This document shows positions 6,807 to 51,405 of a stretch of 64,000 bases of DNA, piece after piece (the stretch's first letter is position 1; each line of letters starts with the position of its first letter). Origin of the DNA: Pedosphaera sp. (GTDB lineage Bacteria > Verrucomicrobiota > Verrucomicrobiia > Limisphaerales > Pedosphaeraceae); the NCBI GenBank assembly GCA_028293285.1, contig JAQGPC010000145.1, positions 1 through 64,000 of the forward strand, given 5' to 3'. The translations under genes were made by a program, and so were the position numbers. The notes below the pieces were generated by a model. It worked only from the letters and a program-made list of their open reading frames with translations. It had not been told where the DNA came from and ran no database searches.

Positions 6807-7583
6807 TTAATTACACCAGCCAGCCGCAATGCCGTCCCATAACAACAGCCGCTGCTCCAATGCGAAAATGGCTGCTTTACGCGCTTCCTGCCACCGTTGC
6901 TCGTCCTGGCCACAAAGGTCTGCCACCATTTGCTCGCCCAGTTTGGCGTGGTGGTCGCCGTCCAGTTGGATATGGCGGTCAAGATAGTAGCGAAGCAGGC
7001 CAACTCGACCGGGAAATTGTTGCGCGAGATTGGTCACCAGTTGACCGAACATGGACGGGATCAAATCCTCTCGCCCGTAAGTAAAGGCAGCGGCCACTTC
7101 ATGATCCTTGCCGGTGGTCAGGATCTCAAAGGTTGCGGCGACAAATCGTCGCGCACAGTCGGGAGCACTCACGGTCGTCAAAGCTGTCGGCACCGGCACC
7201 CCCTTTCGAAGTTGGTCGATGAAGCGTTCCGCAGGTTTAATGTCCGCCCCGGCTTCCCGCATGGCGGCCAGGTAAAGTTCAAAATGACTGCACACGCTGC
7301 CGTCGCTCGCGCGGTCGCTTTCTTCCCCCAGAACAATTTCGTTAATGAGCCCACGGACAGCCGCATTCCCCCGAGGCACCCATGGGACCTCTACGCAGGT
7401 CAGGCGCCTTTGCAATTCCTTGAGCAGTGACATGAAATCCCATACGGCATAGACATGATGTTCCATGAAGCGAACGAGGTCGGTTGGGGACTGCAACCGC
7501 CCATATAGACCATGGTTCAGGAGCTTTTGCCGCAGCGGCTCAATGGCGCTTGCGATGGTTTGCGATGATGAAACAGATGGCAT
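6807..7583 (-). CDS. DUF3050 family protein (heme-oxygenase-like fold)
   Basis: A 258-aa protein matching the DUF3050 family by its N-terminal signature (LLNHGLYGRLQSPTDLVRFM and HHVYAVWDFMSLLK) and histidines and acidic residues along the helices (HFELY, GREDLIP, DRHIQLDGDHH). The family belongs to the TenA/heme-oxygenase-like superfamily, whose members may bind di-iron; the reaction is unknown. Its start lies just after the broken end of an xdhC-like remnant, so the two were probably brought together by a deletion. Confidence 0.85.
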   Translation of the reverse strand: MPSVSSSQTIASAIEPLRQKLLNHGLYGRLQSPTDLVRFMEHHVYAVWDFMSLLKELQRRLTCVEVPWVPRGNAAVRGLINEIVLGEESDRASDGSVCSHFELYLAAMREAGADIKPAERFIDQLRKGVPVPTALTTVSAPDCARRFVAATFEILTTGKDHEVAAAFTYGREDLIPSMFGQLVTNLAQQFPGRVGLLRYYLDRHIQLDGDHHAKLGEQMVADLCGQDEQRWQEARKAAIFALEQRLLLWDGIAAGWCN

Positions 7584-7635
7584 CAGGCAAGGACTTTAAC
7601 ATGGCTATGCAATCCCGCAACCAGTAGAGCCGAGG

Positions 7636-7809
7636 GAGGCAGCCGCCGCTCAAGTTCCCCGCTGGTTCTCCGTCCTCTCGCATCAACATCCGCGCGCCGG
7701 GACGCCGGTAGGCCGAGCCTTCAACGCACACGACCGTCGCAAGCGCGGTTTGCACCTGGTCGCGTCTGGCGCGCAGGTAGGCTTCCACGATAGCTCGCGC
7801 TTCTTTCAT
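7636..7809 (-). pseudogene. Truncated XdhC/PaoD-type molybdenum cofactor chaperone
   Basis: The reverse strand from 7809 encodes 58 residues clearly like the N-terminus of XdhC/CoxI proteins (ALATVVCVEGSAYRRPGARM, then GNLSGGCL). Directly after the conserved GGCL, homology stops; the frame runs on to 7540 through unrelated sequence into the DUF3050 gene. Full-length family members are about 250-380 aa and have a C-terminal Rossmann domain, absent here. It is the fourth gene of the aldehyde oxidoreductase operon, where paoD sits in E. coli. The enzyme probably relies on another chaperone or is poorly matured (inference). Confidence 0.75.
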
Positions 7810-7866
7810 TTGGTGAGATTCCTGAAGATGGCCGCTCTCATTGAAGTTCGGAATGGTTCCAGGGTT

Positions 7867-10095
7867 CTAGAACAATTTATCGACCGTGATCGGCATGTCC
7901 CGAACACGCTTGCCCGTGGCATGGAAGACGGCATTCGCGATCGCTGCTGCTGTGCCAACGATGCCAATCTCACCCAGACCCTTCACACCCAACGGATTGA
8001 CGATAGTGTCATGTTCTTCAACGAAAATCACATCGATGTCATACACGTCCGCATTCACGGGAACGTGGTAGTCGGCCAGGTTATGCGTCATAATGCGTCC
8101 CAGATTTTGGTCAACGACGCTCTCTTCTTCCAGGGCCATGCCGATGGCCCCGACCGCAGCGCCGAGTACCTGGCTGCGCGCGGTCTTTGGATTGAGAATA
8201 CGTCCACCCGCCACTGCGATTACAATCCGCGTGACCCGAATCGTGCGGAGTTCCTCATCGACTTTCACTTCCACAAAAATTGCCGAATGGGTATAGCGCG
8301 CATAAGGCTCTTGTTTGGCCTCGTCGGGTGAACTTGTCGCTTCTTCCGCCAGCGTGGTAGCTCCGCCATGTCGCATTATCTCGCCAATGGCAACGCCCCG
8401 GTCCGAATCATTTTTCAATCGCATCTGCCCTTCACTGAAAGCCACGTCCTCGAACTTTAAATTTGCGAAGGGCGAAGCCTCCATTTTTTGCGCCATTGCA
8501 AAAAGTTTGGCCCCGACTGCATCGCACACTTTTTTGACAGCTGAGCCATTGGTCGCTGCCGTCCACGAACCGCCCTCAATGGGGGATTGCGGCAGGGTCG
8601 AATCGCCCAGTTTGAACGTCACGTCCTGCAGGGGCAAACCGAGCGTCTCCGCGGCAATCTGGGTCATGATCGTGTAAGTGCCCGTCCCGATATCCGCCGT
8701 TGCGCTGCTGACTTCGAGTTTGCCGTCACTCGTCAGCACCGCCCGGGCACTCGCCGGTTGCTGCATGGCTTCCCAGATGCCGGTCGCCATGCCCCAGCCG
8801 ATTAATTCGCTGCCATCGCGCATCGAACCTGGTTGCGGTTTGCGGTTCGCCCAGCCGAATTTCTCAGCGGCTTGCCGGTAACAGGCGCGCAGTTCCTTGC
8901 TCGAAAAAGGTTTGCCTTCATTCTGATCCTTTTCAGAATAATTTTTCAGGCGTAATTCAAGCGGATCACAACCGACTTTGTAGGCGAGTTCGTCCATGGC
9001 ACATTCAATCGCGTACATCCCCGGCGCCCCGCCCGGCGCGCGCATATCCATCGGCGTGCAGAGGTCCAGTTGCGCAATATTGTAAGAGAACTTCATGTTG
9101 TCGCACTGGTATAGGGAGCCGGCCCAATTGACAACCATCTCCTGGTAATCTTCATACCGTGAAGTGTTGGCGAGCGCGTCATGCATGAAGGCCTCGAGGG
9201 CTCCATCTTTGGCCGCCCCGATGGCGACCCGTTGTAACGTATTGGGGCGATAACCGAGACCGAACATTTGTTGGCGGGTCAGCGAGACCCGGACGGAGCA
9301 TTTGAGTTCACGCGCTGCCAATGCCGCCAAGAATATTTGGTATTGCGGACGCAACCCCGAACCAAATGCCCCGCCAACGAACGGAGAGATGACACGCACG
9401 TCGTCCATGGGAAAACCGAAGATATTGGCGATGTAACGCTGGCAGTTTTGCGCTCCCTGGTTTTTGTCATAAATAGTGATTTTGCCATTGCCTTCCCATA
9501 CTGCCGTCGAGGCGAACAGTTCCATGGGGTTGTGATGTTCGATCGGCAAGTCGTACTCGGCATCGTGCTGGTGGACGGCACGTTGGAAGGCTTTTTCGGC
9601 ATTGCCGCGTGGTTTCACCGGCTCAAAACCCTCCATCCGTTTTATTTTCGGCTCGTAGCCGTTGGCGCGCACTTTACTCAGGTCCGTCTCGTGCGATTCC
9701 ACTTTATATTCAATATGGACCAGCGATGCCGCGTAGCGTGCAATCTCAAATTCCTCGGCCACGACCAGTGCTACGGGTTGACCACTGAATTTGATTTGAT
9801 TGTCGTAAAGCGGACGAAAGGGCGAACCAGGCGAAGCGGCTTCGTCCTCGTAGCTTTGGTCATCCTCCGCAATTTTATGCCGGTTCTCGTGGGTGAATAC
9901 CTGCAGCACGCCTTCCACTGCCAGCGCTTCGCTGGCATCAATCTTCGTGATGCGTCCCCGCGCAATCGCACTGGTGACGATATAACCGTATGCCAGGTTT
10001 GGCACGTTATATTCGGCGGCGTACTTCGCTGCGCCGGTTACTTTTGCCCGCCCATCAACGCGGCTCGTCGCCTTTCCCATGTAGTTCGTGGTCAT
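7867..10095 (-). CDS. Xanthine dehydrogenase-family molybdopterin-binding subunit (PaoC-like)
   Basis: A 742-aa large subunit of the xanthine oxidase family. It starts GKATSRVDGRAKVTGAAKYAAEY, contains the glycine-rich VGGAFGSG loop, and near the C-terminus has GVKGLGEIGIVGTAAAIANA, where the Glu of GLGEIG is the catalytic base of the family. With the FAD and 2Fe-2S genes upstream it forms an alpha-beta-gamma enzyme like E. coli PaoABC (YagTSR), which oxidises aldehydes to acids. Spacing of about 20 bases to the FAD-subunit gene indicates co-transcription. Aldehyde oxidation is favoured over xanthine by similarity; the substrate is unproven. Confidence 0.9.
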   Translation of the reverse strand: MTTNYMGKATSRVDGRAKVTGAAKYAAEYNVPNLAYGYIVTSAIARGRITKIDASEALAVEGVLQVFTHENRHKIAEDDQSYEDEAASPGSPFRPLYDNQIKFSGQPVALVVAEEFEIARYAASLVHIEYKVESHETDLSKVRANGYEPKIKRMEGFEPVKPRGNAEKAFQRAVHQHDAEYDLPIEHHNPMELFASTAVWEGNGKITIYDKNQGAQNCQRYIANIFGFPMDDVRVISPFVGGAFGSGLRPQYQIFLAALAARELKCSVRVSLTRQQMFGLGYRPNTLQRVAIGAAKDGALEAFMHDALANTSRYEDYQEMVVNWAGSLYQCDNMKFSYNIAQLDLCTPMDMRAPGGAPGMYAIECAMDELAYKVGCDPLELRLKNYSEKDQNEGKPFSSKELRACYRQAAEKFGWANRKPQPGSMRDGSELIGWGMATGIWEAMQQPASARAVLTSDGKLEVSSATADIGTGTYTIMTQIAAETLGLPLQDVTFKLGDSTLPQSPIEGGSWTAATNGSAVKKVCDAVGAKLFAMAQKMEASPFANLKFEDVAFSEGQMRLKNDSDRGVAIGEIMRHGGATTLAEEATSSPDEAKQEPYARYTHSAIFVEVKVDEELRTIRVTRIVIAVAGGRILNPKTARSQVLGAAVGAIGMALEEESVVDQNLGRIMTHNLADYHVPVNADVYDIDVIFVEEHDTIVNPLGVKGLGEIGIVGTAAAIANAVFHATGKRVRDMPITVDKLF

Positions 10096-36550: not shown

Positions 36551-36576
36551 TGACAACATCTTCATTCGCCATTCAT
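36551..36576 (+). promoter_or_regulatory. 26-base repeated element, copy 1
   Basis: This stretch matches 46267-46292 at 24 of 26 positions; the common core is TCTTCATTCGCCATT. It ends 79 bases before the PEP-mutase-like start codon. The second copy is at nearly the same distance from its downstream gene, which suggests a shared promoter or operator rather than a random repeat. Confidence 0.5.
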
Positions 36577-36655
36577 TGTCCGTTCATGCAAGATTGTTAA
36601 GTTAGCCAAGCGGGAAGTGATTCCGCATTAAACGAACGAAAGTGAAGTAACCTTT

Positions 36656-37678
36656 ATGCAAACAGCGAAGTTGGACAGTAACAAGCCAGTGACCACGAAC
36701 GGCCATTCAAAGCCTCATCCTGAACCCGACCATGCCACCCGCCTTTTCAACGGTCAGTTCCAAGTGGGCGTTGGATTGTATGATGGCGTCTCGGCTTTGC
36801 TCGCTGCGAAGCATCATTTTGACTTCGTATGGGTCAGCAGTTTCTGCTGCTCCGCCGCTGCTGGCTTGCCCGATGTCGGCATCATTGGACCCGAAGACAT
36901 CCTGAACCTCGTTCATCTCTCCCGTCGATTGGTGGATTTGCCCATCATCGTGGATCTTGATTCCGGCTACGGCGATCCCGTGAAGGTGTTCCATGTCATT
37001 GAGGCCATGGCGCGGGCCGGTGTGTCCGCAGTATGCATTGAAGACAATCCGACCTCCAAGCGTTGTAGTCTTTATGGCGGCTATGATCGCGCTTTAGCTT
37101 CCATTGACGAACACGTCGCCCGTCTGCGTGCCGCGCGCATTGCCATCAAAGAAGCTCGCTCCAACTGCCGTATCATCGCCCGCACCGAGGCATTGGTGGC
37201 TGGTATGGGCATGGCCGAAGCGCTCAAGCGGGCCACGGCCTACGCGGATAACGGAGCGGACGCAGTATTTGCCCAATCGCTGGATGCAACCGGAAACGAA
37301 ATCCTGACATTCGGCCGTAAATGGGGTCGCCGCACTCCCTATATTATTGCTCCCACGAAGCTTCCCAAGATCACCAAGAAGGAATTCGCCGAAGCCGGGG
37401 TTTCGCACACCATTTTTGCAAACCAAGGTCTGCGAGCCGCACACAAAGCCATCGACCTAACCTTCCGCACACTGGCCGAAGCCACATCGGCCCAGTCAGT
37501 GGAGCCGGATATTTCCACCGTTGCCGAGGTTGCCACACTCGTAGGAGCGCAGGAAGTGGTGGAACTCGAAACGTTGCTGGCGAATGCTCCCGTGACGCCG
37601 GTCTCAACCAAATCTCTGGTCAAGTCCTCCCGCAAGCTTGCCGCCAACGGTCAGGCGAGGCGGGCCAGTAAAAGATAA
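36656..37678 (+). CDS. PEP mutase / isocitrate lyase superfamily enzyme
   Basis: A 340-aa alpha/beta-barrel protein of the PEP mutase/2-methylisocitrate lyase superfamily. Mg-binding residues lie in VDLDSGYGD (100-107). The flexible-loop signature at 129-139 is E-D-N-P-T-S-K-R-C-S-L: it aligns without gaps to the PEP mutase pattern EDKxxxxxNS but has Asn for the first Lys and Cys for the key Asn, while KRC recalls methylisocitrate lyase. True PEP mutase makes phosphonopyruvate; lyases cleave C-C bonds. An aminotransferase, ATP-grasp and MFS operon follows 184 bases later, beyond a hairpin. The enzyme class is sure, the reaction is not. Confidence 0.8.
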   Translation: MQTAKLDSNKPVTTNGHSKPHPEPDHATRLFNGQFQVGVGLYDGVSALLAAKHHFDFVWVSSFCCSAAAGLPDVGIIGPEDILNLVHLSRRLVDLPIIVDLDSGYGDPVKVFHVIEAMARAGVSAVCIEDNPTSKRCSLYGGYDRALASIDEHVARLRAARIAIKEARSNCRIIARTEALVAGMGMAEALKRATAYADNGADAVFAQSLDATGNEILTFGRKWGRRTPYIIAPTKLPKITKKEFAEAGVSHTIFANQGLRAAHKAIDLTFRTLAEATSAQSVEPDISTVAEVATLVGAQEVVELETLLANAPVTPVSTKSLVKSSRKLAANGQARRASKR

Positions 37679-37756
37679 TCTACGCTTAGGTGCGAACAGC
37701 TATCGGGCTTGGACTCTTGACATCCGATGCGAAGCATAGCCATTTTTAATCATGCC

Positions 37757-37794
37757 ATCACGCCCTGCGGTTACTTGCCGTCGGGCGTGATTTT
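37757..37794 (+). terminator. Rho-independent-like terminator after the PEP-mutase-like gene
   Basis: ATCACGCCC (37757-37765) pairs with GGGCGTGAT (37783-37791), with further partial pairing inside, followed directly by TTTTG. It lies about 80 bases after the gene's stop and about 70 before the aminotransferase start. It suggests that the mutase-like gene and the next operon are separate or only partly linked transcription units. Confidence 0.7.
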
Positions 37795-37862
37795 GTTAAT
37801 AGAAACCGGGTTTGTCCCAAGCGCGCCTGGAAAGCAAATTTCAGACATTAAAAGAACTAATT

Positions 37863-39053
37863 ATGTTAGCTGAACGGATGAAAAACTTTTCCGGATCGCA
37901 GACTTCGGGCATGCGCAACCGCGCCCGCAAACTGCGTGCCGAAGGAATCCACGTGGTCAACTTCGCCGCCGGCGAACTGGACCAGGACACAAGTTCGAGC
38001 ATTAAAGCGGCAGCCCGGAAAGCAATCGACTCTGGTCGCACGCAATATACGGATACCTTGGGGATTGCTGAATTGCGTGAGCGAGTGGCCCAAAAGGTTT
38101 CGCAAAAGACAGGCATAATTTACGCAGCGGACGAAGTGGGCTTTACCGCCGGAGCCAAACAAGCATTGTTCAACGCGAACTTTGTGCTTTTTCAACCGGG
38201 TGATGAAGTCATCATTCCCTCCCCGTATTGGGTGACGCTGCCGGAACAAGTGCGCCTGGCCGGTGCGACTCCCATCGCTCTGCCCACAGGCCAAAATGGT
38301 TTTCAAATCAACATTGACGAACTCACGCGGATCATTACTCCCAAGACTCGTGGGATTATCCTTAACACCCCGCACAATCCGACCGGCGTGGTTTATCCTG
38401 CGGATACTCTGGAAAAAATTGCCCACCTTGCATTGAAACATGACCTCGTCTGCATCTTCGATGAATGTTACGACGAACTGGTGTATGCCCCGGCGGCGCA
38501 TCACAACATCGTGAAGCTGGTTCCCGAGATGAAAGCCCGGACCATTCTTGTTGGGTCACTGTCGAAATCTTATTGCATGGCTGGATGGCGGGCTGGTTTT
38601 CTGGCTGGGCCGCAGAAAGTCATCAAAGCCATTGCCAATCTTCAAAGTCATATCGCGTCGAATCCCTGCAACATTGTCCAATACGCCGCCTTGGCTGCTT
38701 TTGAATCGGAGAATGATGCCTTTGTCGCGGGAAACCGAAAACAATTAACCATCCAACGCACCACCGCGCTGCAACTGATTGACAAAATTCCTGGTCTTCC
38801 TTGTGTTGTTCCCGACGGAGCATTTTATCTCTTCCCTGATGTCAGCTCGCTGTTCAACAAATCATTTAAAGATCAGCGCGTGGAGAATGTGGATCGTCTG
38901 GCTGAAATGCTGCTGGAACACGCCCATATTGCCATCGTGCCGGGATCTGCTTTTGGTGCGGACAATCACATTCGCATTTCCTACGCCATACCGAATGAAG
39001 AGATTGTTGCAGGTTTGACCCGGCTGGGACAATTTGTTCAGTCGCTGTCATGA
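37863..39053 (+). CDS. Class I PLP aminotransferase (aspartate-type)
   Basis: A 396-aa fold-type I aminotransferase. The PLP Lys is residue 235 in SLSKSYCMAGWRAGF; NTPHNPTGVVY, FDECYDELVY and, near the end, HIRISYA with the substrate-carboxylate Arg complete the set. The family transaminates aspartate, aromatic or similar amino acids. First gene of a packed operon: it overlaps the ATP-grasp gene by four bases. In the phosphonate hypothesis it would aminate phosphonopyruvate to phosphonoalanine. ATG at 37863 preferred over a TTG at 37812. Confidence 0.9.
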   Translation: MLAERMKNFSGSQTSGMRNRARKLRAEGIHVVNFAAGELDQDTSSSIKAAARKAIDSGRTQYTDTLGIAELRERVAQKVSQKTGIIYAADEVGFTAGAKQALFNANFVLFQPGDEVIIPSPYWVTLPEQVRLAGATPIALPTGQNGFQINIDELTRIITPKTRGIILNTPHNPTGVVYPADTLEKIAHLALKHDLVCIFDECYDELVYAPAAHHNIVKLVPEMKARTILVGSLSKSYCMAGWRAGFLAGPQKVIKAIANLQSHIASNPCNIVQYAALAAFESENDAFVAGNRKQLTIQRTTALQLIDKIPGLPCVVPDGAFYLFPDVSSLFNKSFKDQRVENVDRLAEMLLEHAHIAIVPGSAFGADNHIRISYAIPNEEIVAGLTRLGQFVQSLS

Positions 39054-40327
39054 ATTTGGAATCGCAAACTGCAAACCCATCGGTGTCAAAACCGGGCATG
39101 GTTCTATTTCTCGGCATGGTGCGGCGCGGCGAGTTTGAAACTCTGCAAGAGCGCGGCCTGCCACTCGGTGTCCTCGTGGATACGAATAGCAAGGCGCGAC
39201 TGGGCGATGTCTCCAAATTCGTATTTGTAGAGCGATTCGATTTCTCGCGACCACTGCCGGAATTGATTGAAGCCGTGCGCAGCATTCAGAAACGTTTCGG
39301 CATTGCTTGTCTCTTTAACGTTGTGGAGTTTTACGTCGCGCAGACCGCTGACGTAGCCGCTGCGCTTGGGCTTCCAGGGATTTCACCCGCATCGGCACGG
39401 CTCTGCCTCGACAAGAACGTCATGCGCCAGCGTTTTGAAAAGCGGATCGGACCCGGCGCTTCCGCGCGCTTCCATGTAGTGAATTCCGAGGCGGATTTGC
39501 TGCAATTCGCGAACCAGCTCGGCTACCCTTGTTTTCTGCAACCCACCAACGTGTCTGCGAGCATGTGGGCGACACGCAATACTAATGCGGAAATGCTGCT
39601 CAACAACTACCGTACGATGCTGAGTGAGGTTCCTCCGTATTACGAACGCCTTGGCAAAAAAGGTACGAGTCTCACGGTAGTGCTGGCGGAATACATGGAA
39701 GGGAGCAACATTTCCATTGATTGTCTGATGGATAAGGCTGGCCGTGTTTACACTACTCCGGCGGTTGAGGTGTTGACTGGCAAAGATGTTGGCATTGACG
39801 ACTTCCATCATTTTGCGCGGTTGCTGCCGCCGCGTCTCAGTGCCAAGGAAAAAGAGGAGTTGAATCAGTTGGCAATCGCAGGCGTACAAGCATTGGACAT
39901 GACCACGAGCGCAGCGCATGTCGAATTCATCGGTTCGCGGCTGGGCGAGATCGCGGCCCGGCCGGGCGGCAACCGGCCACGCATTCTCGAAATGGCTTAC
40001 GGCATCGATATGCTGTACGCCTATTACCAAATTCTCCGTGGAGAAGTTCCTGACCTGAGCGGAAACCGCAATTTGGCGGCAGCCGTCGTTACACCGTTCG
40101 CCCCTAAAAACGGCACCTTGCGCTCCATCCGCCACGTCGAACGGCTGCCCAAACTTCCCGGTTATCTTTATCATGAAGTCCGGGCTCAGGCCGGACAACA
40201 GGTTGGCCTGGCGAAGGGTGGCTTTCGCGCAGGACTTTACGTCGAGCTTCTGTCCGAAAATGCCGATGAGGTCCGCCGTAGCGTGGATGAAATCGCTTCA
40301 TGGACCGATTTGTACGAGGTGGAATGA
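39050..40327 (+). CDS. ATP-grasp ligase (amino acid/peptide ligase type)
   Basis: A 425-aa ATP-grasp protein. An N-terminal Rossmann-like domain is followed by LCLDKNVMRQRFEKRIGPG, the ATP-binding LGYPCFLQPTNVSASMW loop, EYMEGSNISIDCLMD and the metal-site segment EFIGSRLGEIAARPGGNRPR. The layout is that of L-amino acid ligases (BacD-like) and carnosine synthase-like enzymes, which join a carboxylate to an amine with ATP. Tight linkage to an aminotransferase and an exporter-type MFS points to synthesis of a small peptide or amide. Substrates unknown. Confidence 0.88.
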   Translation: MNLESQTANPSVSKPGMVLFLGMVRRGEFETLQERGLPLGVLVDTNSKARLGDVSKFVFVERFDFSRPLPELIEAVRSIQKRFGIACLFNVVEFYVAQTADVAAALGLPGISPASARLCLDKNVMRQRFEKRIGPGASARFHVVNSEADLLQFANQLGYPCFLQPTNVSASMWATRNTNAEMLLNNYRTMLSEVPPYYERLGKKGTSLTVVLAEYMEGSNISIDCLMDKAGRVYTTPAVEVLTGKDVGIDDFHHFARLLPPRLSAKEKEELNQLAIAGVQALDMTTSAAHVEFIGSRLGEIAARPGGNRPRILEMAYGIDMLYAYYQILRGEVPDLSGNRNLAAAVVTPFAPKNGTLRSIRHVERLPKLPGYLYHEVRAQAGQQVGLAKGGFRAGLYVELLSENADEVRRSVDEIASWTDLYEVE

Positions 40328-40328
40328 A

Positions 40329-41618
40329 ATGCGTTCACGCCCGGAATCAACGATGGCGATCTGGCTGGTCTGCTTTGGAATCGGCATTTTGTTCCTGGCG
40401 CGCGGTGCGTTCCAGCCCTACATCTTTCCCCTGTTTGAACACCTGGGCGGATTGACGTATGCGCAGATTGCCTTGCTGCTCAATGGCTACGTGCTCGCGC
40501 AATCCCTCTGTGCGCCGGTTGCGGGCTGGTTCACCGACCGGACATCGGTCCGGACTGCGCTGGCAACGAGCATCGTGTTTGGATTGTCCAGTTTCGTCCT
40601 CATCTCCACCAGCCCGGGGTTTCTGATATCGGCCATTGCCGTCTTTGTCGCGGGCCTGGCATTTGTTCTTGGGAAAATCTCACTCAATACCATCCTCGTG
40701 CTGCATTCCAGCGCGGACACGCTGCGTCGTTCCGTCGCAAAGCGCGCCACGTTGTTGAATCTCGGTTCATTTTTCGGCAACAGCATTGCCTATCAGATGA
40801 CCACCCGCATCGGTTACGGAGCGCATGCCATCCTGCTCGGCATTTTATATTTGCCTCTGGCAATTGGTCTTGCCGCTCCTCCGGCTCCATCGGTCTCTCC
40901 ATCCAAAAAAACCTGGGGAATGGACAACGTAAAAACTTTGTGCCGTAACAAAGTTTTTTTAGCAGACAGCCTGCGACGCTTTGCGATGGTGTTGCCTTAC
41001 GGTTGCTGGGGAACCATCATCCCCAAATACGTAATCGACCAATATCATTCAAACAAACCGGTATGGATCGTCTCGCTAACGAGCGTGTGTACCACCATTA
41101 TCGGCGCACATTTTTTGGCGGTATATCTTTCCACCAAATTATATCGCCGGGGCTTCAAGTGGGAATGGTGGTCAATGACCTCGGTCATGTTTTATTGCAC
41201 GGGACTGATCCTGCTGATGTTCGCCAATAATCCAGTAATGCTCCCATTGGCCATCGTCGTTTTCATTTGTGGGGAAGTTTTGATGACACCGTGTTTCGAT
41301 GAGACTGCGAAGAAACATAGCAGCGATGCGGGCATGGCCACCTGTCTGGGATTGCTGCACCTCGTGGACGGCTTAGGCCGGATGTTGGGAGCGGCATTCG
41401 CGCTGGCAGTTTATGGCGGGATGCGGCATTCATCATATAACGGATTTTATTGGCCGATCGTGGTTGGCGTCTTTCTATGTGTTACCATCGGGCTGCACAT
41501 GGTGGCGCACGCATTGGCACGCGGCCAAAATGGAGTTGCCGCGAACAAGGGCCGCATGGAAACTGCGCTGGAACAGCAACCGGCGGGCGTCCCGGATGGA
41601 CCCGAGCTTGAGCCTTAA
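40329..41618 (+). CDS. MFS transporter
   Basis: A 429-aa protein with about 12 hydrophobic segments and the MFS loop motif between helices 2 and 3 seen as GWFTDRTSVRTAL. The start at 40329 lies one base after the ATP-grasp stop. Placed in a ligase operon, export of the product or self-protection is likely, but uptake cannot be excluded. The last 30 residues are a polar cytoplasmic tail. Confidence 0.88.
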   Translation: MRSRPESTMAIWLVCFGIGILFLARGAFQPYIFPLFEHLGGLTYAQIALLLNGYVLAQSLCAPVAGWFTDRTSVRTALATSIVFGLSSFVLISTSPGFLISAIAVFVAGLAFVLGKISLNTILVLHSSADTLRRSVAKRATLLNLGSFFGNSIAYQMTTRIGYGAHAILLGILYLPLAIGLAAPPAPSVSPSKKTWGMDNVKTLCRNKVFLADSLRRFAMVLPYGCWGTIIPKYVIDQYHSNKPVWIVSLTSVCTTIIGAHFLAVYLSTKLYRRGFKWEWWSMTSVMFYCTGLILLMFANNPVMLPLAIVVFICGEVLMTPCFDETAKKHSSDAGMATCLGLLHLVDGLGRMLGAAFALAVYGGMRHSSYNGFYWPIVVGVFLCVTIGLHMVAHALARGQNGVAANKGRMETALEQQPAGVPDGPELEP

Positions 41619-41619
41619 C

Positions 41620-43344
41620 ATGAGTATTTGTTCGCGAATCACATCAGTGATGTTGCTCGTGTTGATGATGCTCGGATGCGTACGACCCCAGCCTCAACCT
41701 GAAACAAGTCGAGTCTCGCCGACAAATTCAAACCGTTTTGTCGAGTGCCACAACGGAGTCGTGGTGTCGGTATCCGGTCCAGCCTCGGACGTAGGCGTGT
41801 CGATCCTAAAACAGGGTGGCAATGCCGTGGATGCCGCCGTGGCAACTGCCTTTGCGCTGGCCGTCGTGTATCCGCCAGCGGGCAATTTGGGCGGTGGTGG
41901 TTTCATGCTCGTGCATCCCGCTCCCGGCAAAGGCGAACCAGTGGTTTTTGATTATCGCGAGAGCGCACCGGCGGCGGCGTTTCCCACCATGTATAGCAAA
42001 GAGGAGTCCCAGTTCACACATCGGGCGGTGGCCGTTCCGGGAACAGTGCGCGGTTTCGCCATGGCGCACCGCAGATTCGGATCGTTGCCATGGTCGCAAC
42101 TGCTGCAGCCGGCCATTGCTCTGGCACGTGATGGTTACTTGGTGGATATGAATTTGGCGGATTCGCTCAACGTAACGTTAGCCGCTGCACCCGAGCATGC
42201 GGAGTTTCAGCGGGTGTTCGGCAAGCCCGGCGGCGGCTTGTGGAAATTGGGCGATCGCATGGTCCAACCCGACTTGGCGCGTACGCTGCAATTGCTCGCC
42301 GACCTGGGGCCCGAAGCGTTCTACCAAGGTCCGATCGCCAACGGAATCATTGCCGAGATGGGCAGAGGCAAAGGGTTGATCACAGCGCAAGACCTCGCCA
42401 ACTATCGGGCCATCGAACGCAAGCCGCTCACAACCCGTTACCGCGGAAGATATGACGTCTATGTGCCGCCGCCGCCAAGTTCGGGCGGCATCTGCCTGTT
42501 GGAAGAATTGAACATGTTGGATACCTTCAATGTGAAACCGTGGGGTCGCTGGTCGCCAACGCTCTTTCATGTGATGGCGGAAACCATGCGCCGCGCCAAT
42601 TACGATCGCGCGCGCTATCTGGGCGATCCTGCATTCGTCCAAATCCCCGCAAAGCTGACGACGCCCGAGTACGGCCGGGAGCTCGCCAAAACAATCAATC
42701 TCAATAAGGCAACGCGTAGCGAGGAGTTATCCGCCGAGATTCCATTGACTCGCGAGGGCGACAGCACAACGCAGTTTTCCATCATTGACCGCAAAGGGAT
42801 GGCCGTGGCGAATACCTACACGCTGGAACGCCGTTGGGGTTCGCGGATCGTGGTAAAGAACATGGGATTCCTGCTTAACAATCAGATGCGCGCCTTTAAT
42901 CTTTTTCCAGGCATCACGGATACCAATGGAATGATCGGAACTGCGCCGAACATTATTGCTCCCGGCAAGCGACCGCTCAGTTCGCAAACTCCCACCATCG
43001 TGGCGGAGAATGGCCGGGTGAAGCTCGTCACCGGCAGCCCCGGGAGCCAGGCCATCCCGCACACGGTCCTCGGCATCCTGGTCAGTGTGTTCGATTTTGA
43101 AATGCCGGTGCAAACAGCGGTGGAGTCGCCGCGTTTTTCGCATCAATGGTTTCCGGATCGGATCACTTTTGAAACGCCGGAACGTTATCCCGAACTGGTA
43201 AAATCTTTGAACGACCTGGGTCATACTGTGATTCGCACCGGACCTCCGCCGCAAGGCGACGCCCATACGATTCTCGTCAAAAAGCCCAATCACTATATTG
43301 GTGTCGCAGATTGGCGCATTAATGGCAAAGCGGCAGGTTATTGA
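41620..43344 (+). CDS. ggt: Gamma-glutamyltranspeptidase lipoprotein
   Basis: A 574-aa Ntn-hydrolase. The leader MSICSRITSVMLLVLMMLGC has a lipobox with Cys20, so it is probably membrane-anchored outside the cytoplasm. The autocatalytic site is Thr383 in GDSTTQFSIID, where the precursor splits in two chains, and SGGICLLEELN and GSPGSQAIPHTV are family motifs. It removes or transfers gamma-glutamyl groups. It starts one base after the MFS stop, so it belongs to the same operon and may trim an exported gamma-glutamyl peptide or simply salvage glutathione. Confidence 0.9.
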   Translation: MSICSRITSVMLLVLMMLGCVRPQPQPETSRVSPTNSNRFVECHNGVVVSVSGPASDVGVSILKQGGNAVDAAVATAFALAVVYPPAGNLGGGGFMLVHPAPGKGEPVVFDYRESAPAAAFPTMYSKEESQFTHRAVAVPGTVRGFAMAHRRFGSLPWSQLLQPAIALARDGYLVDMNLADSLNVTLAAAPEHAEFQRVFGKPGGGLWKLGDRMVQPDLARTLQLLADLGPEAFYQGPIANGIIAEMGRGKGLITAQDLANYRAIERKPLTTRYRGRYDVYVPPPPSSGGICLLEELNMLDTFNVKPWGRWSPTLFHVMAETMRRANYDRARYLGDPAFVQIPAKLTTPEYGRELAKTINLNKATRSEELSAEIPLTREGDSTTQFSIIDRKGMAVANTYTLERRWGSRIVVKNMGFLLNNQMRAFNLFPGITDTNGMIGTAPNIIAPGKRPLSSQTPTIVAENGRVKLVTGSPGSQAIPHTVLGILVSVFDFEMPVQTAVESPRFSHQWFPDRITFETPERYPELVKSLNDLGHTVIRTGPPPQGDAHTILVKKPNHYIGVADWRINGKAAGY

Positions 43345-44630: not shown

Positions 44631-46123
44631 TTACCCTTTTAACCAACCCTTCGCGCAACCCACCGCTTTGCGCCAGCCATGCTTGAGTTCGGAAACTTTG
44701 GCTGGGTCCATTAATGGGCGAAACTCTTTCTCGATCTGCCATTGCCTTTGTAATTCCTCCGTGTCCTTCCAAAATCCCACGGCGAGACCGGCGAGATACG
44801 CTGCACCCAAAGCAGTTGTCTCCCAAATCTTTGGTCGAACCAACGGCACGTTAAGAATGTCTGCTTGAAATTGCATCAACGTATCATCACCCGTCGCACC
44901 GCCATCCACACGAAGCTCCTTTACCGGAATTCCCGAATCAGCCTCCATCGCTTCCAGTACATCGAGCGTTTGAAACGCAATGCCTTCGAGCGCAGCGCGT
45001 GCGAGATGTCCAGCCGTGGTTCCGCGTGTGATGCCCGTAATGGTTCCCCGCGCATACTGATCCCAATGCGGTGCGCCTAATCCAGCAAATGCCGGCACGA
45101 GATAAACCCCGCCATTATCCGGAACCGTCTGCGCGAGTCGCTCCACCTCAGCAGAAGTCTTGATCAAACCCAATCCATCGCGCAGCCATTGCACCACCGC
45201 ACCCGCAATAAAAATGCTTCCTTCTAATGCGTAAGTGACCTTCCCATCAATCTTCCACGCAATCGTCGTCAGTAGATTGTTTTTCGACGTGATCGGCGTA
45301 TCACCAGTGTTCAACACCATAAATCCGCCTGTCCCGTAAGTATGCTTTAACATCCCCGGACGCAGGCACATTTGCCCGAACAACGCTGCTTGCTGGTCTC
45401 CCGCTATTCCCGCCACCGGCACGCGTGAGCCAAGCAGGGTGGGGACCGTCTCCGCATAAACTTCACTCGATGCTTTTACCTTTGGCAACATCGCTTTAGG
45501 AATATCGAACAACTCCAATAATTCCGTATCCCATTCATTTGTGTGAATGTTGTAGAGCAGGGTGCGGCTCGCATTGCTGACATCCGTGATGTGCGCCGCG
45601 CCACCAGTGAGCTTCCACGCCAGCCAACTATCCACCGTGCCAAACGCCAGCTTGCCCGCTTCCGCCTTTTGCGCGCGCCGTCCACGTTGTCCAAAATCCA
45701 TTTCAACTTCGTGCCTGAGAAATAAGCGTCCAACACCAAACCGGTCTTCTGCTGAATCAATCCTGCTAATCCTTGCCGTTTGAGTTCATCGCAATGTTCC
45801 GCCGTGCGCCGGTCCTGCCAGACAATTGCATGGCAAATTGGCTCACCCGTTTCACGGTCCCAAACAATGGTTGTCTCACGCTGATTCGTGATGCCAATGG
45901 CCGCAATCTCATTGCCACTCAGCCCCGCGCTGGCGAGCGCTTCCGCAACCACGCCTGCCTGCGTGGACCAGATTTCATTCGCGTCATGTTCCACCCAGCC
46001 CGGCTTCGGATAATATTGTGTAAACTCCTTTTGTGCGACCGACCTGATCGCCCCGGCATGATCGAAGATGATTGCGCGCGAACTCGTAGTGCCCTGATCG
46101 ATAGCTAGAATGTGTTGTTGCAT
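44631..46123 (-). pseudogene. glpK: Glycerol kinase with a frameshift
   Basis: Two overlapping frames on the minus strand together make a full glycerol kinase of about 497 aa. The first starts at 46123 ([20 protein letters not shown]) and is homologous through [13 protein letters not shown]; the second resumes at [20 protein letters not shown] and runs to KGWLKG at 44631. The break is near 45663-45678, in a run of A and GC repeats, and needs one extra base to restore frame. Glycerol kinase makes glycerol 3-phosphate from glycerol and ATP. Either a true inactivation or an assembly error; no other defect is seen, which hints at recency or error. Confidence 0.88.
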
Positions 46124-46266: not shown

Positions 46267-46292
46267 TGACAACTTCTTCATTCGCCATTTAT
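46267..46292 (+). promoter_or_regulatory. 26-base repeated element, copy 2
   Basis: Near-identical (24/26) to 36551-36576 and ending 69 bases before the start of the 46362 gene. It is in the divergent intergenic region between the broken glpK and this gene, where a promoter is expected. Confidence 0.5.
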
Positions 46293-46361
46293 CCACCTTT
46301 CATCTCTGCCCCATAAGCTCTGACTGAATTCACGAATATTTTAATCAGAACTAAAAACGAA

Positions 46362-47054
46362 ATGCTTATGCAACGAATCAAATACACACTCATGGTCCTC
46401 GGATTCCTCGGCGTTTCACTTACCGGCGTGATAGCACAAGACGCGGCGTCCGACGTCGCCAAGATGAACCACACCCTGATGCATGCCACCGGGCCATACG
46501 AAGACATGGTTGGTCCCGCCCTCGCCAAGAATAAAAAGGACGTCGCCGCGTTGCTGGCCACCGCCGACAAGGAAGCAGACAGCGTCAAGCAAGCTCTCCC
46601 CGCTGAAGCCGCCAAACAATTCGATACCCTCCTGAAAGCCATCCACCAGGCAGCGGATGCCAAGGACAATCTCGCGCTCGCGAAGAACTCAGTGGCCGTT
46701 TTCCGGTTGCTGGTGGACCATCTTAAAGCCGACGCACTCAAAATTCCTCTGGAAGTAAGCCTCCTCGACTGGGCCGGCTACGAACTCCAAGTGCTTGCCT
46801 CTGCGGATAAGCCAGATTGGAGCGCTATGAACAAGGTCGCCGCTGATTCTGAAACCTGGTGGAAGGCCATGTCCACGACTAAGGTTCCAGACAAGCACTT
46901 GCGTGCCACGATGACCTCGGCCATCCGCGGCATCAAACAAGCTATTCAAGAAAAGAATCTCACGATGGTGAAATTTGCCGCGCAAATGGACCTTGATTTA
47001 GTGGACGTGGTTGAAGATACCTTCAAGACCAAAGCACCGCCGAAACCTAATTAA
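46362..47054 (+). CDS. Secreted helical protein of unknown function
   Basis: A 230-aa protein with a clear signal peptide (MVLGFLGVSLTGVIAQD), rich in Ala, Lys and Asp and predicted all-helical. Features such as KMNHTLMHATGPYEDMV and AMNKVAADSETWWKAM recall periplasmic four-helix-bundle proteins, but no heme CxxCH or metal motif is present. Function unknown. A hairpin terminator follows. Upstream is the repeated 26-base element. Confidence 0.75.
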   Translation: MLMQRIKYTLMVLGFLGVSLTGVIAQDAASDVAKMNHTLMHATGPYEDMVGPALAKNKKDVAALLATADKEADSVKQALPAEAAKQFDTLLKAIHQAADAKDNLALAKNSVAVFRLLVDHLKADALKIPLEVSLLDWAGYELQVLASADKPDWSAMNKVAADSETWWKAMSTTKVPDKHLRATMTSAIRGIKQAIQEKNLTMVKFAAQMDLDLVDVVEDTFKTKAPPKPN

Positions 47055-49120: not shown

Positions 49121-49291
49121 GTCTCACCTTGGTAATGCCTTGTTCTCTAAATACATTTTTTCAGCCTATATACTTTAAGAGGTTTTGTTTGGGAGTCAAA
49201 GAAGGGGTTTACCCTATTCGAAATATGGTGCAATTGAATACACCTGAGTGCTTGCGGGTCAATTACCTCAATGTACTATCATGCGACAAAA

Positions 49292-50290
49292 ATGAGTAAA
49301 CGGACTTATTGGATTAAACTTTGGGCCTGTGCATTGCTTTATATCGGTTGGACTTATGCCCTGAATGCCTCGGAAACGGTGCACTTCCTGGCCACCGGCG
49401 ATACCGGTAGTGGACTCGAACAGCAGAAACAGGTGGCCGAAGCGATGGCACAATACGCTGATAAGCATCAAGACAGCAATGCGGTAAACTTTGTGATTCT
49501 AGCCGGGGACAATTTTTATAATGACGGGGTTAAGACTGTGGATGATCCGCAGTGGCAGCAAAAGTTTGAAAAGATGTACGATGCCAAACGGCTGCCCATG
49601 CCTTTCATTGCCGTACTAGGCAATCATGATTGGAGGAATGATCAACCGGATGTGGAGATCGATTACGCGAAAGCCCATCCCGGCACGCGCTGGCAAATGG
49701 ATGGCCATTGGTTTAAGCGCCAGTTTCCGGCCCACCTTGCTGATACCAACGCCGCACCACTTGCTGAGTTTTTCTTCATCGATACCGAGGCTTGGAGTGC
49801 CACTGATAGCCATGTCGCTCACTACAAGGACAAGCATCTCGGTGATAAGCAAATGGCCTGGCTGGAAGGTGAATTGAAGAAATCGCAGGCCCGTTGGAAA
49901 ATTGTGGTCGCCCATCATCCACTTTACTCAAATGGCGAGCACGGGCATGACTCTCAAATAACCTTTTTACGCGGCCGCTTGGGCCCATTATTCAAACAAA
50001 GCAAGGTGGATGCATTCATCACTGGCCACGATCATGATTTGCAACGCATTGAAGTTCCCGGCGAACCAACCCTGTTTCTAATCAGTGGCGCGGGGAGCAA
50101 GCTGCGTCCGCAGAAATTTAAAGACTGGAAGCCCTTTCACGCCTCGAAAGCGGGCTTTGCCGCAATCCGCCTGACTGAAACCGAGATGCGTGGGGAATTT
50201 CTGGATGTAAACGGCAAGCCTTTGGATGTCTGGCACCGCAAACCGCTTTCTGGCGCTCCGGAGAGCGTTCGTCTCAAGAGTAGCAACTAA
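49292..50290 (+). CDS. Secreted metallophosphoesterase, purple acid phosphatase-like
   Basis: A 332-aa exported protein with a signal peptide (LWACALLYIGWTYALNASE) and the calcineurin-like metal motifs: ATGDTG, LAGDNFYNDG, LGNHDW, VVAHHPLYSNGEHG and TGHDHDLQR. The order resembles tartrate-resistant (type 5) acid phosphatase. It hydrolyses phosphate monoesters outside the cytoplasm. The ATG at 49292 fits the signal peptide; 49271 is also in frame. Confidence 0.9.
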   Translation: MSKRTYWIKLWACALLYIGWTYALNASETVHFLATGDTGSGLEQQKQVAEAMAQYADKHQDSNAVNFVILAGDNFYNDGVKTVDDPQWQQKFEKMYDAKRLPMPFIAVLGNHDWRNDQPDVEIDYAKAHPGTRWQMDGHWFKRQFPAHLADTNAAPLAEFFFIDTEAWSATDSHVAHYKDKHLGDKQMAWLEGELKKSQARWKIVVAHHPLYSNGEHGHDSQITFLRGRLGPLFKQSKVDAFITGHDHDLQRIEVPGEPTLFLISGAGSKLRPQKFKDWKPFHASKAGFAAIRLTETEMRGEFLDVNGKPLDVWHRKPLSGAPESVRLKSSN

Positions 50291-50373
50291 AACTTTGAAC
50301 TGCACCACACTTAATGCTAAAGCTAACTGCGCTGATCACTCTCAAAGTCTGACCACAACAACCAATTCACCTT

Positions 50374-51405
50374 ATGTTTAAACCACGCCTTCTCCTCTTT
50401 TCCGCTGTGTTCGCATTCGCCTGCTCACAATCTCCCGCCGCATGGGCTGGTTGTAAAATCGTTTCCCATATTAAGGTGGGCGGTGAAGGTGGCTGGGATT
50501 ATCTCACAGCCGATGCCAAAGCCCGTCGTTTGTATGTCTCTCATGGGAATGAAGTAGTAGTTATCAATCTGGATACCGAAGCCGTTGTTGCCCGAATAGA
50601 CGGAATGAAAGGCGTGCATGGCATTGCGTTGGCCCCGGAACTCAATCGCGGGTTCATCAGCAATGGCCAGGAAGGAACCGTTGCGGTATTCGCGCTCGAT
50701 ACCTCCAAGGAAATAGGCAGCCGAATCAAAACGGGCCAGAACCCTGATGCAATTCTTTACGAGCCGTCCACCAAGCGGGTATTTACCTTCAACGGCAAGA
50801 GCATGGACATCAGCGTGATTGATGCAGCTAAAGGCGAAGTTGTCGGCACCATCCCGGTGGGTGGCAAACCTGAGTTTGCCGTGACGGATGGCCATGGCAC
50901 CGTGTGGGTAAACATCGAAGACAAAAGCGAGGTGGTACAATTCGATGCCAAGACCATGCTGGTTAAAAATCATTGGCCAGTCGCTCCCGGTGAAGAACCT
51001 TCTGCCCTCGCAATGGATCAAGCCAATCATCGCCTCTTCATCGGTTGCGGTGGAAATGAGAAAATGGTCATCATGGATGCCCAGACTGGAAAAGTCGTGA
51101 CCTCCGAACCCACAGGCAAGGGAGTTGACGCAGCAGTATATGACGCCGGCACGAAACGGGCTTTTTCATCCCAGGGCGACGGCACCATGACCGTCGTCCA
51201 CCAGGATTCGCCCGATAAATATACCGTGGAAGAAACCGTTAAAACCGGACCCCGCGCTCGCACCATGACCATCGATTCCAAGACCCACAAACTTTACCTT
51301 CCGACGGCTGAATTCGATCCTGCACCCGCTGCGACGCCGGACAATCCGCATCCGCGGCCCAAGATGAAGCCTGGAACATTTCAAATTCTTGTAATCAGCC
51401 AGTAG
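50374..51405 (+). CDS. YncE-like secreted beta-propeller protein
   Basis: A 343-aa exported protein with a signal peptide (LLLFSAVFAFACSQSPAAWAG), then YVTN/YncE-type propeller blades such as RLYVSHGNEVVVINLDTEAV, KRVFTFNGKSMDISVIDAAK and HRLFIGCGGNEKMVIMDAQT. Such proteins often bind ligands or surfaces in the periplasm; no enzyme motif. It lies 83 bases downstream of the phosphatase and could share its transcript. Confidence 0.88.
   Translation: MFKPRLLLFSAVFAFACSQSPAAWAGCKIVSHIKVGGEGGWDYLTADAKARRLYVSHGNEVVVINLDTEAVVARIDGMKGVHGIALAPELNRGFISNGQEGTVAVFALDTSKEIGSRIKTGQNPDAILYEPSTKRVFTFNGKSMDISVIDAAKGEVVGTIPVGGKPEFAVTDGHGTVWVNIEDKSEVVQFDAKTMLVKNHWPVAPGEEPSALAMDQANHRLFIGCGGNEKMVIMDAQTGKVVTSEPTGKGVDAAVYDAGTKRAFSSQGDGTMTVVHQDSPDKYTVEETVKTGPRARTMTIDSKTHKLYLPTAEFDPAPAATPDNPHPRPKMKPGTFQILVISQ

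Follow-up and report, generated by a model that had tools for sequence, protein, structure and literature searches.

A set of five intact genes in the stretch of DNA analysed here (the window, positions 1 to 64,000 of contig JAQGPC010000145.1 of Pedosphaera sp., assembly GCA_028293285.1) probably makes, judging from sequence, an exported peptide with a carbon-phosphorus bond. The set lies at 36656-43344, and we put the probability that it encodes a minimal phosphonopeptide pathway whose first enzyme is a non-canonical PEP mutase at roughly 0.55. On a wider scale, we lean slightly towards the view that enzymes with the motif EDNX5[CS]S are PEP mutases of a separate lineage, unseen by filters based on EDKX5NS, that supplies phosphonopyruvate both to methylphosphonate-type pathways in actinobacteria and to one-ligase phosphonoalanine dipeptide pathways in relatives of Pedosphaera. 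Since the enzyme is without the signature used to recognise PEP mutases, a branch of carbon-phosphorus chemistry has probably been overlooked.

The gene set and its recurrence in the order

Open reading frames and Pfam/NCBIfam matches agree with the five genes and the coordinates given in the first-pass annotation (Table 1), and the spacings of -4, +1 and +1 reported there for the last four genes are exact. The start of the aminotransferase gene was fixed by comparison with orthologs. The four genes tested for selection (mutase, aminotransferase, ligase and MFS transporter) are under purifying selection, with dN of 0.09-0.23 and dS >1.3.

Table 1. Features of the gene set and of its upstream and intergenic regions (positions in the window)
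Feature	Position	Strand	Basis or remark
PEP-mutase-superfamily enzyme, divergent, proposed phosphonopyruvate synthase	36656..37678	+	ORFs; PF13714 159 bits
Aspartate-aminotransferase-type PLP enzyme	37863..39053	+	PF00155 252 bits; proposed phosphonopyruvate to phosphonoalanine
ATP-grasp amino-acid ligase (BacD/LAL type)	39050..40327	+	PF13535; LAL_C2 weak
MFS transporter, proposed exporter	40329..41618	+	ORFs, Pfam/NCBIfam
Gamma-glutamyltranspeptidase (GGT)	41620..43344	+	PF01019 520 bits
Terminator- or attenuator-like hairpin, then TTTT	37757..37791	+	z -4.1
11-bp direct-repeat element TTCATN6TTCATN6TTCAT	36561..36587	+	68 nt before mutase start

When 245 genomes of the order were searched for the ligase, close orthologs with 67-84% identity were identified in five, not counting its own genome, and in all five the variant mutase gene adjoins the ligase gene. 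The five-gene set is present, in full or cut by contig ends, at loci L060, L065/L035 and L062+L063 (split over two contigs), and in part at two others. L034 has mutase, aminotransferase and ligase genes with frame breaks, without the MFS and GGT genes; L061 has mutase and ligase genes with a different MFS gene and without an aminotransferase gene, the best aminotransferases of its genome being merely 38% and 35% identical to the operon enzyme. The neighbourhood search that had been proposed as a check shows that the set recurs, complete or partial, in other genomes of the order. The first-pass annotation had held that a wide occurrence of the four-gene operon without the mutase gene would count against its reading; such a set was not found in the 245 genomes. 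As a separate observation on L034, frame changes at 6963-9413 break the aminotransferase and ligase genes, and the same MAG (RYN_623) has a second variant locus, L033.

A variant lineage beside the PEP mutases

The first enzyme had been described as PEP mutase-like, and PEP mutase is indeed its best family match: the top NCBIfam match is TIGR02320 (206.8 bits, under the cut-off of 319.55, which no verrucomicrobial or actinobacterial control exceeds either), and the closest sequence in the PDB is also a PEP mutase. However, the enzyme is more unusual than was assumed, in points that had been missed: it is without EDKX5NS, having EDNPTSKRCS in that place, and it falls outside the PEP mutase clade. 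The pattern EDNP..KR.SL is invariant across ten relatives, as EDNPxSKRCSLY in all seven verrucomicrobial sequences and as EDNPLxKRSSLY in all three actinobacterial ones. In the numbering of the mussel enzyme, Asn122 is replaced by Cys (Ser in actinobacteria), Lys116 by Asn and His190 by Gln. The phosphonyl oxygens are held by Arg159, His190 and, hypothetically, Asn122 and Ser123, and PPH has Thr at position 122 (PMC7916636). Alignment with 1m1b and the invariant columns indicate that the Mg-site acids and the equivalent of Arg159 are present; the kept residues Asp73, Asp100, Asp102, Glu129, Lys135, Ser138 and Arg176 correspond to mussel D58, D85, D87, E114, K120, S123 and R159. The enzyme matches neither the lyase motif K[KR]CGH, having KRCSL instead, nor the PPH motif EDKX5TS.

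The tree consists of three groups, namely the variant clade (100/100), PepM together with PPH (95/89) and the lyases (100/100), in which the variant clade is a lineage of its own, sister to PepM and PPH and not within the clade of characterised PEP mutases. A grouping with methylisocitrate or other C-C lyases, named in the first-pass annotation as a result that would contradict it, was not observed: the lyases lie across a 100/100 branch, and the AU test rejects a grouping with PrpB (p-AU 0.0015). A grouping with PPH is rejected weakly (p-AU 0.038). When the AlphaFold model (pLDDT 76.5) is compared with known structures, 5unc ranks first (Z 32.2), followed by 1pym (31.3), PPH (30.9) and methylisocitrate lyases (up to 29.0), a ranking that is confined to one superfamily and proves no function by itself. 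On the basis of the tree, the AU test and the model, the enzyme is therefore placed next to, not in, the PEP mutases. It resembles PepM (TIGR02320; 1pym, 5unc) in predicted fold, Mg-site residues, the Arg159 equivalent and overall best match, but differs in having EDNX5[CS]S rather than EDKX5NS and Gln rather than His190, in its score under the family cut-off and in its position outside the clade.

In a scan of one genome per species (84,980 species), the sole close relatives outside Verrucomicrobiota were found in Amycolatopsis acididurans, a Pseudonocardiaceae MAG and Frankia. The lineage is rare, since no other close member turned up in wider searches (396 Actinomycetota genomes, 297 of the Amycolatopsis family, plasmids and viral contigs). 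In all three actinobacteria, the variant gene is followed immediately by genes for the N- and C-subunits of a TPP enzyme (a split phosphonopyruvate decarboxylase), an MPnS-like protein and an Fe-ADH. At L036, the TPP subunits score 107 and 126 bits with TIGR03297, sulfopyruvate decarboxylase models also being near; the MPnS-like protein matches methylphosphonate synthase 6b9s with 257 bits over its length, and the Fe-ADH matches TIGR03405 with 185 bits. The route from PEP through phosphonopyruvate, phosphonoacetaldehyde and hydroxyethylphosphonate to methylphosphonate needs exactly these genes, the variant taking the place of the mutase. When the three genomes were searched with TIGR02320, a canonical PEP mutase was not found in two of them (the best other matches, 146 and 31 bits, have motifs of the lyase type); that of Frankia has a canonical enzyme (EDKHYPKMNS, L039 1501-2307) as well as the variant, on different contigs. 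Given this phosphonate gene context, and since no canonical mutase was found in two genomes, the lineage, by analogy, most likely makes phosphonopyruvate, although the transfer of function between verrucomicrobial and actinobacterial enzymes is uncertain because they are only 46-48% identical.

The actinobacterial clusters (L036 1-16400, L037 and L038) have some features of their own. L036 and L037 combine C-P lyase genes (PhnI, PhnJ and others) with the methylphosphonate-type synthesis set, and L036 also encodes a MetE-like protein, a 2OG oxygenase, methyltransferases and a MetK-like stretch, so that its product is possibly an undescribed phosphonate.

Surveys use EDKX5NS as the criterion for PepM (PMC6697681, PMC8931226, PMC12723261), and in one of them this filter removed 26,231 of 27,716 PF13714 proteins (PMC6697681); the variant lineage would thus be discarded. 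We found no paper on it in the open-access literature. The first-pass annotation had regarded such a pathway as new in a verrucomicrobium. In fact, canonical EDKX5NS mutases occur in Verrucomicrobiota, and therefore carbon-phosphorus synthesis in the phylum is not new at the sequence level; what is novel is the lineage to which the enzyme belongs, together with the compact set of genes. A single motif and a single HMM cut-off are the main basis both for estimates of how many phosphonate producers live in soils and seawater and for genome mining aimed at phosphonate antibiotics, and both criteria would miss real producers if the lineage makes phosphonopyruvate. In that case, a natural enzyme with Cys or Ser in place of Asn122 and Gln in place of His190 would allow tests of what these two residues contribute to mutase as opposed to hydrolase chemistry, and Verrucomicrobiota would have a very short phosphonopeptide route.

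Proposed pathway and alternative explanations

In the pathway that we favour, the mutase-like enzyme would rearrange PEP to phosphonopyruvate, and the dedicated aminotransferase would convert this into phosphonoalanine, a step that likely exerts the pull on the unfavourable mutase equilibrium. The single ATP-grasp ligase would then couple phosphonoalanine with an amino acid to give a dipeptide, and the MFS transporter would export it. Finally, the exported GGT would take off or transfer a gamma-glutamyl group, a role that is a guess.

The first-pass annotation had noted that no phosphonopyruvate decarboxylase is present, and this holds throughout the genome (93% complete), where the best match reaches 34 bits (cut-off 312.5); amination is thus the likely exit for phosphonopyruvate. 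The operon aminotransferase (best PDB match 1j32, 312 bits) looks like an extra, dedicated enzyme because the genome has a separate Asp aminotransferase, 38% identical to it. The presence of one ATP-grasp ligase suggests that the product is a dipeptide. The closest ligase of known structure is BacD (3vmm), a related amino-acid ligase of the ATP-grasp type that is very distant (34 bits) and differs in context, the neighbours of the window ligase not being bacilysin-type genes; the AlphaFold model of the ligase is too poor to use (pLDDT 47). The MFS protein, which matches efflux models weakly, suggests export. The GGT has a hydrophobic N-terminal stretch and a cysteine, read by eye as an apparent export signal and possibly that of a lipoprotein.

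In the biosynthesis of phosphonoalamides in Streptomyces (PnaA-D), transamination by the AspAT-family enzyme PnaA drives carbon-phosphorus bond formation (PMC11867202). The window set resembles that pathway in combining a PEP mutase-type enzyme, an AspAT-family aminotransferase proposed to act on phosphonopyruvate, ATP-grasp ligation and a transporter without a decarboxylase, but differs in its non-canonical mutase lineage, its exported GGT, its phylum and its one ligase instead of two. It therefore falls outside the phosphonoalamide criterion of PepM, an AspAT-family aminotransferase and two ATP-grasp ligases. The phosphonopeptide reading of the first-pass annotation is partly supported and appears largely right: neither the lyase grouping nor the mutase-free operon was found, and the actinobacterial context fits phosphonopyruvate, whereas the single ligase departs from the phosphonoalamide model invoked there. 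Speaking against our preferred explanation are the lack of conservation of EDKX5NS and His190, the presence of only one ligase, the hairpin downstream of the mutase gene and the incomplete sets at L061 and L034.

The main rival, which we consider unlikely, is the use of phosphonoalanine: the aminotransferase would deaminate it, the mutase-like enzyme would hydrolyse phosphonopyruvate as PPH does or run downhill to PEP, the MFS transporter would act as an importer, and the GGT would free the amino acid from peptides. The equilibrium favours PEP (PMC11867202), and in PalA-type operons (L085, L086) an aminotransferase is likewise found together with a PEP-mutase homolog, the window aminotransferase being 37% identical to the PalB type; however, these PalBA operons show no adjoining ligase, whereas the most constant partner of the variant enzyme is an ATP-consuming ligase and not a hydrolase. 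PalA (PPH) also has a substitution at the Asn122 position, but it is Thr rather than Cys or Ser (EDKTFPKVTSL), and PPH, unlike the variant, retains EDK and branches together with PepM. In addition, the sister lineage in actinobacteria sits in biosynthetic clusters, and the weak rejection of a PPH grouping and the weak efflux matches of the MFS protein also argue against a role in phosphonoalanine use.

We also think it improbable that the enzyme belongs to the C-C lyases of the isocitrate lyase superfamily and provides the 2-oxo acid from which a non-phosphonate dipeptide is made, comparable to clusters with bacilysin-type ligases, a reading with which the match of the ligase to BacD would agree. 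The enzyme has KRC where lyases have KRCGH or KKCGH with the catalytic cysteine, but it does not have the glycine-histidine of this motif, and its actinobacterial relatives have serine instead of the cysteine. The tree, the AU test and the structure ranking all favour the PEP mutase side, the relatives adjoin phosphonate genes, and the genome already has PrpB next to a citrate-synthase-like gene. That the four-gene operon and the mutase gene are neighbours by position only, each a unit serving its own pathway, is highly doubtful, for although hairpins separate mutase and aminotransferase genes in four loci, the mutase gene stands beside every close ligase ortholog found and the gap in L063 is only ~14 nt.

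Intergenic hairpin, upstream repeat and neighbouring genes

The mutase gene had been described as directly upstream of the operon. It does adjoin the aminotransferase gene, but the gap of 184 nt between them holds the strong hairpin listed in Table 1. Hairpins of unrelated sequence occur at the equivalent place in L060 (z -5.3), L033 (z -5.9) and L035 (z -3.0), so that it is plausible that some transcripts end there or that the mutase gene is transcribed on its own. Note that a generic terminator scan gave no excess, and that the window hairpin is absent from its list.

The 11-bp repeat upstream of the mutase gene is, from its pattern, likely an operator of an OmpR/PhoB-type regulator. Allowing up to one mismatch, the 5.87-Mb genome contains two sites, both within the window, and none of the reversed control pattern. 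A related element precedes the mutase gene in L060, L035 and L063 (shuffle p <=0.001), and none was found upstream of it in L033, L034 and L061. An OmpR-type response-regulator/kinase pair adjoins the set in L063, with similar-looking pairs in L061 and L062, so that dedicated two-component control of the set is plausible. The repeat was also considered as a Pho box; the pstS-like genes of this genome are without a comparable element and three other inspected sites are not beside recognisable pho genes, and for this reason we claim no Pho regulon.

The second copy of the repeat (46277-46303) has nearly the same lead sequence, ATGACAAC, and lies 58 nt before a gene at 46362-47054, which encodes a secreted-looking protein of no Pfam family and is likely co-regulated. 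Elsewhere near the operon, the glycerol kinase gene at 44631-46123 (- strand) is split over two overlapping frames, owing to a frameshift or an assembly error, and 49271-51405 contains a metallophosphatase gene and a gene for a YVTN-like beta-propeller protein. A similar propeller gene is present near the set in L061 (6865-7938), with a weak repeat element upstream.
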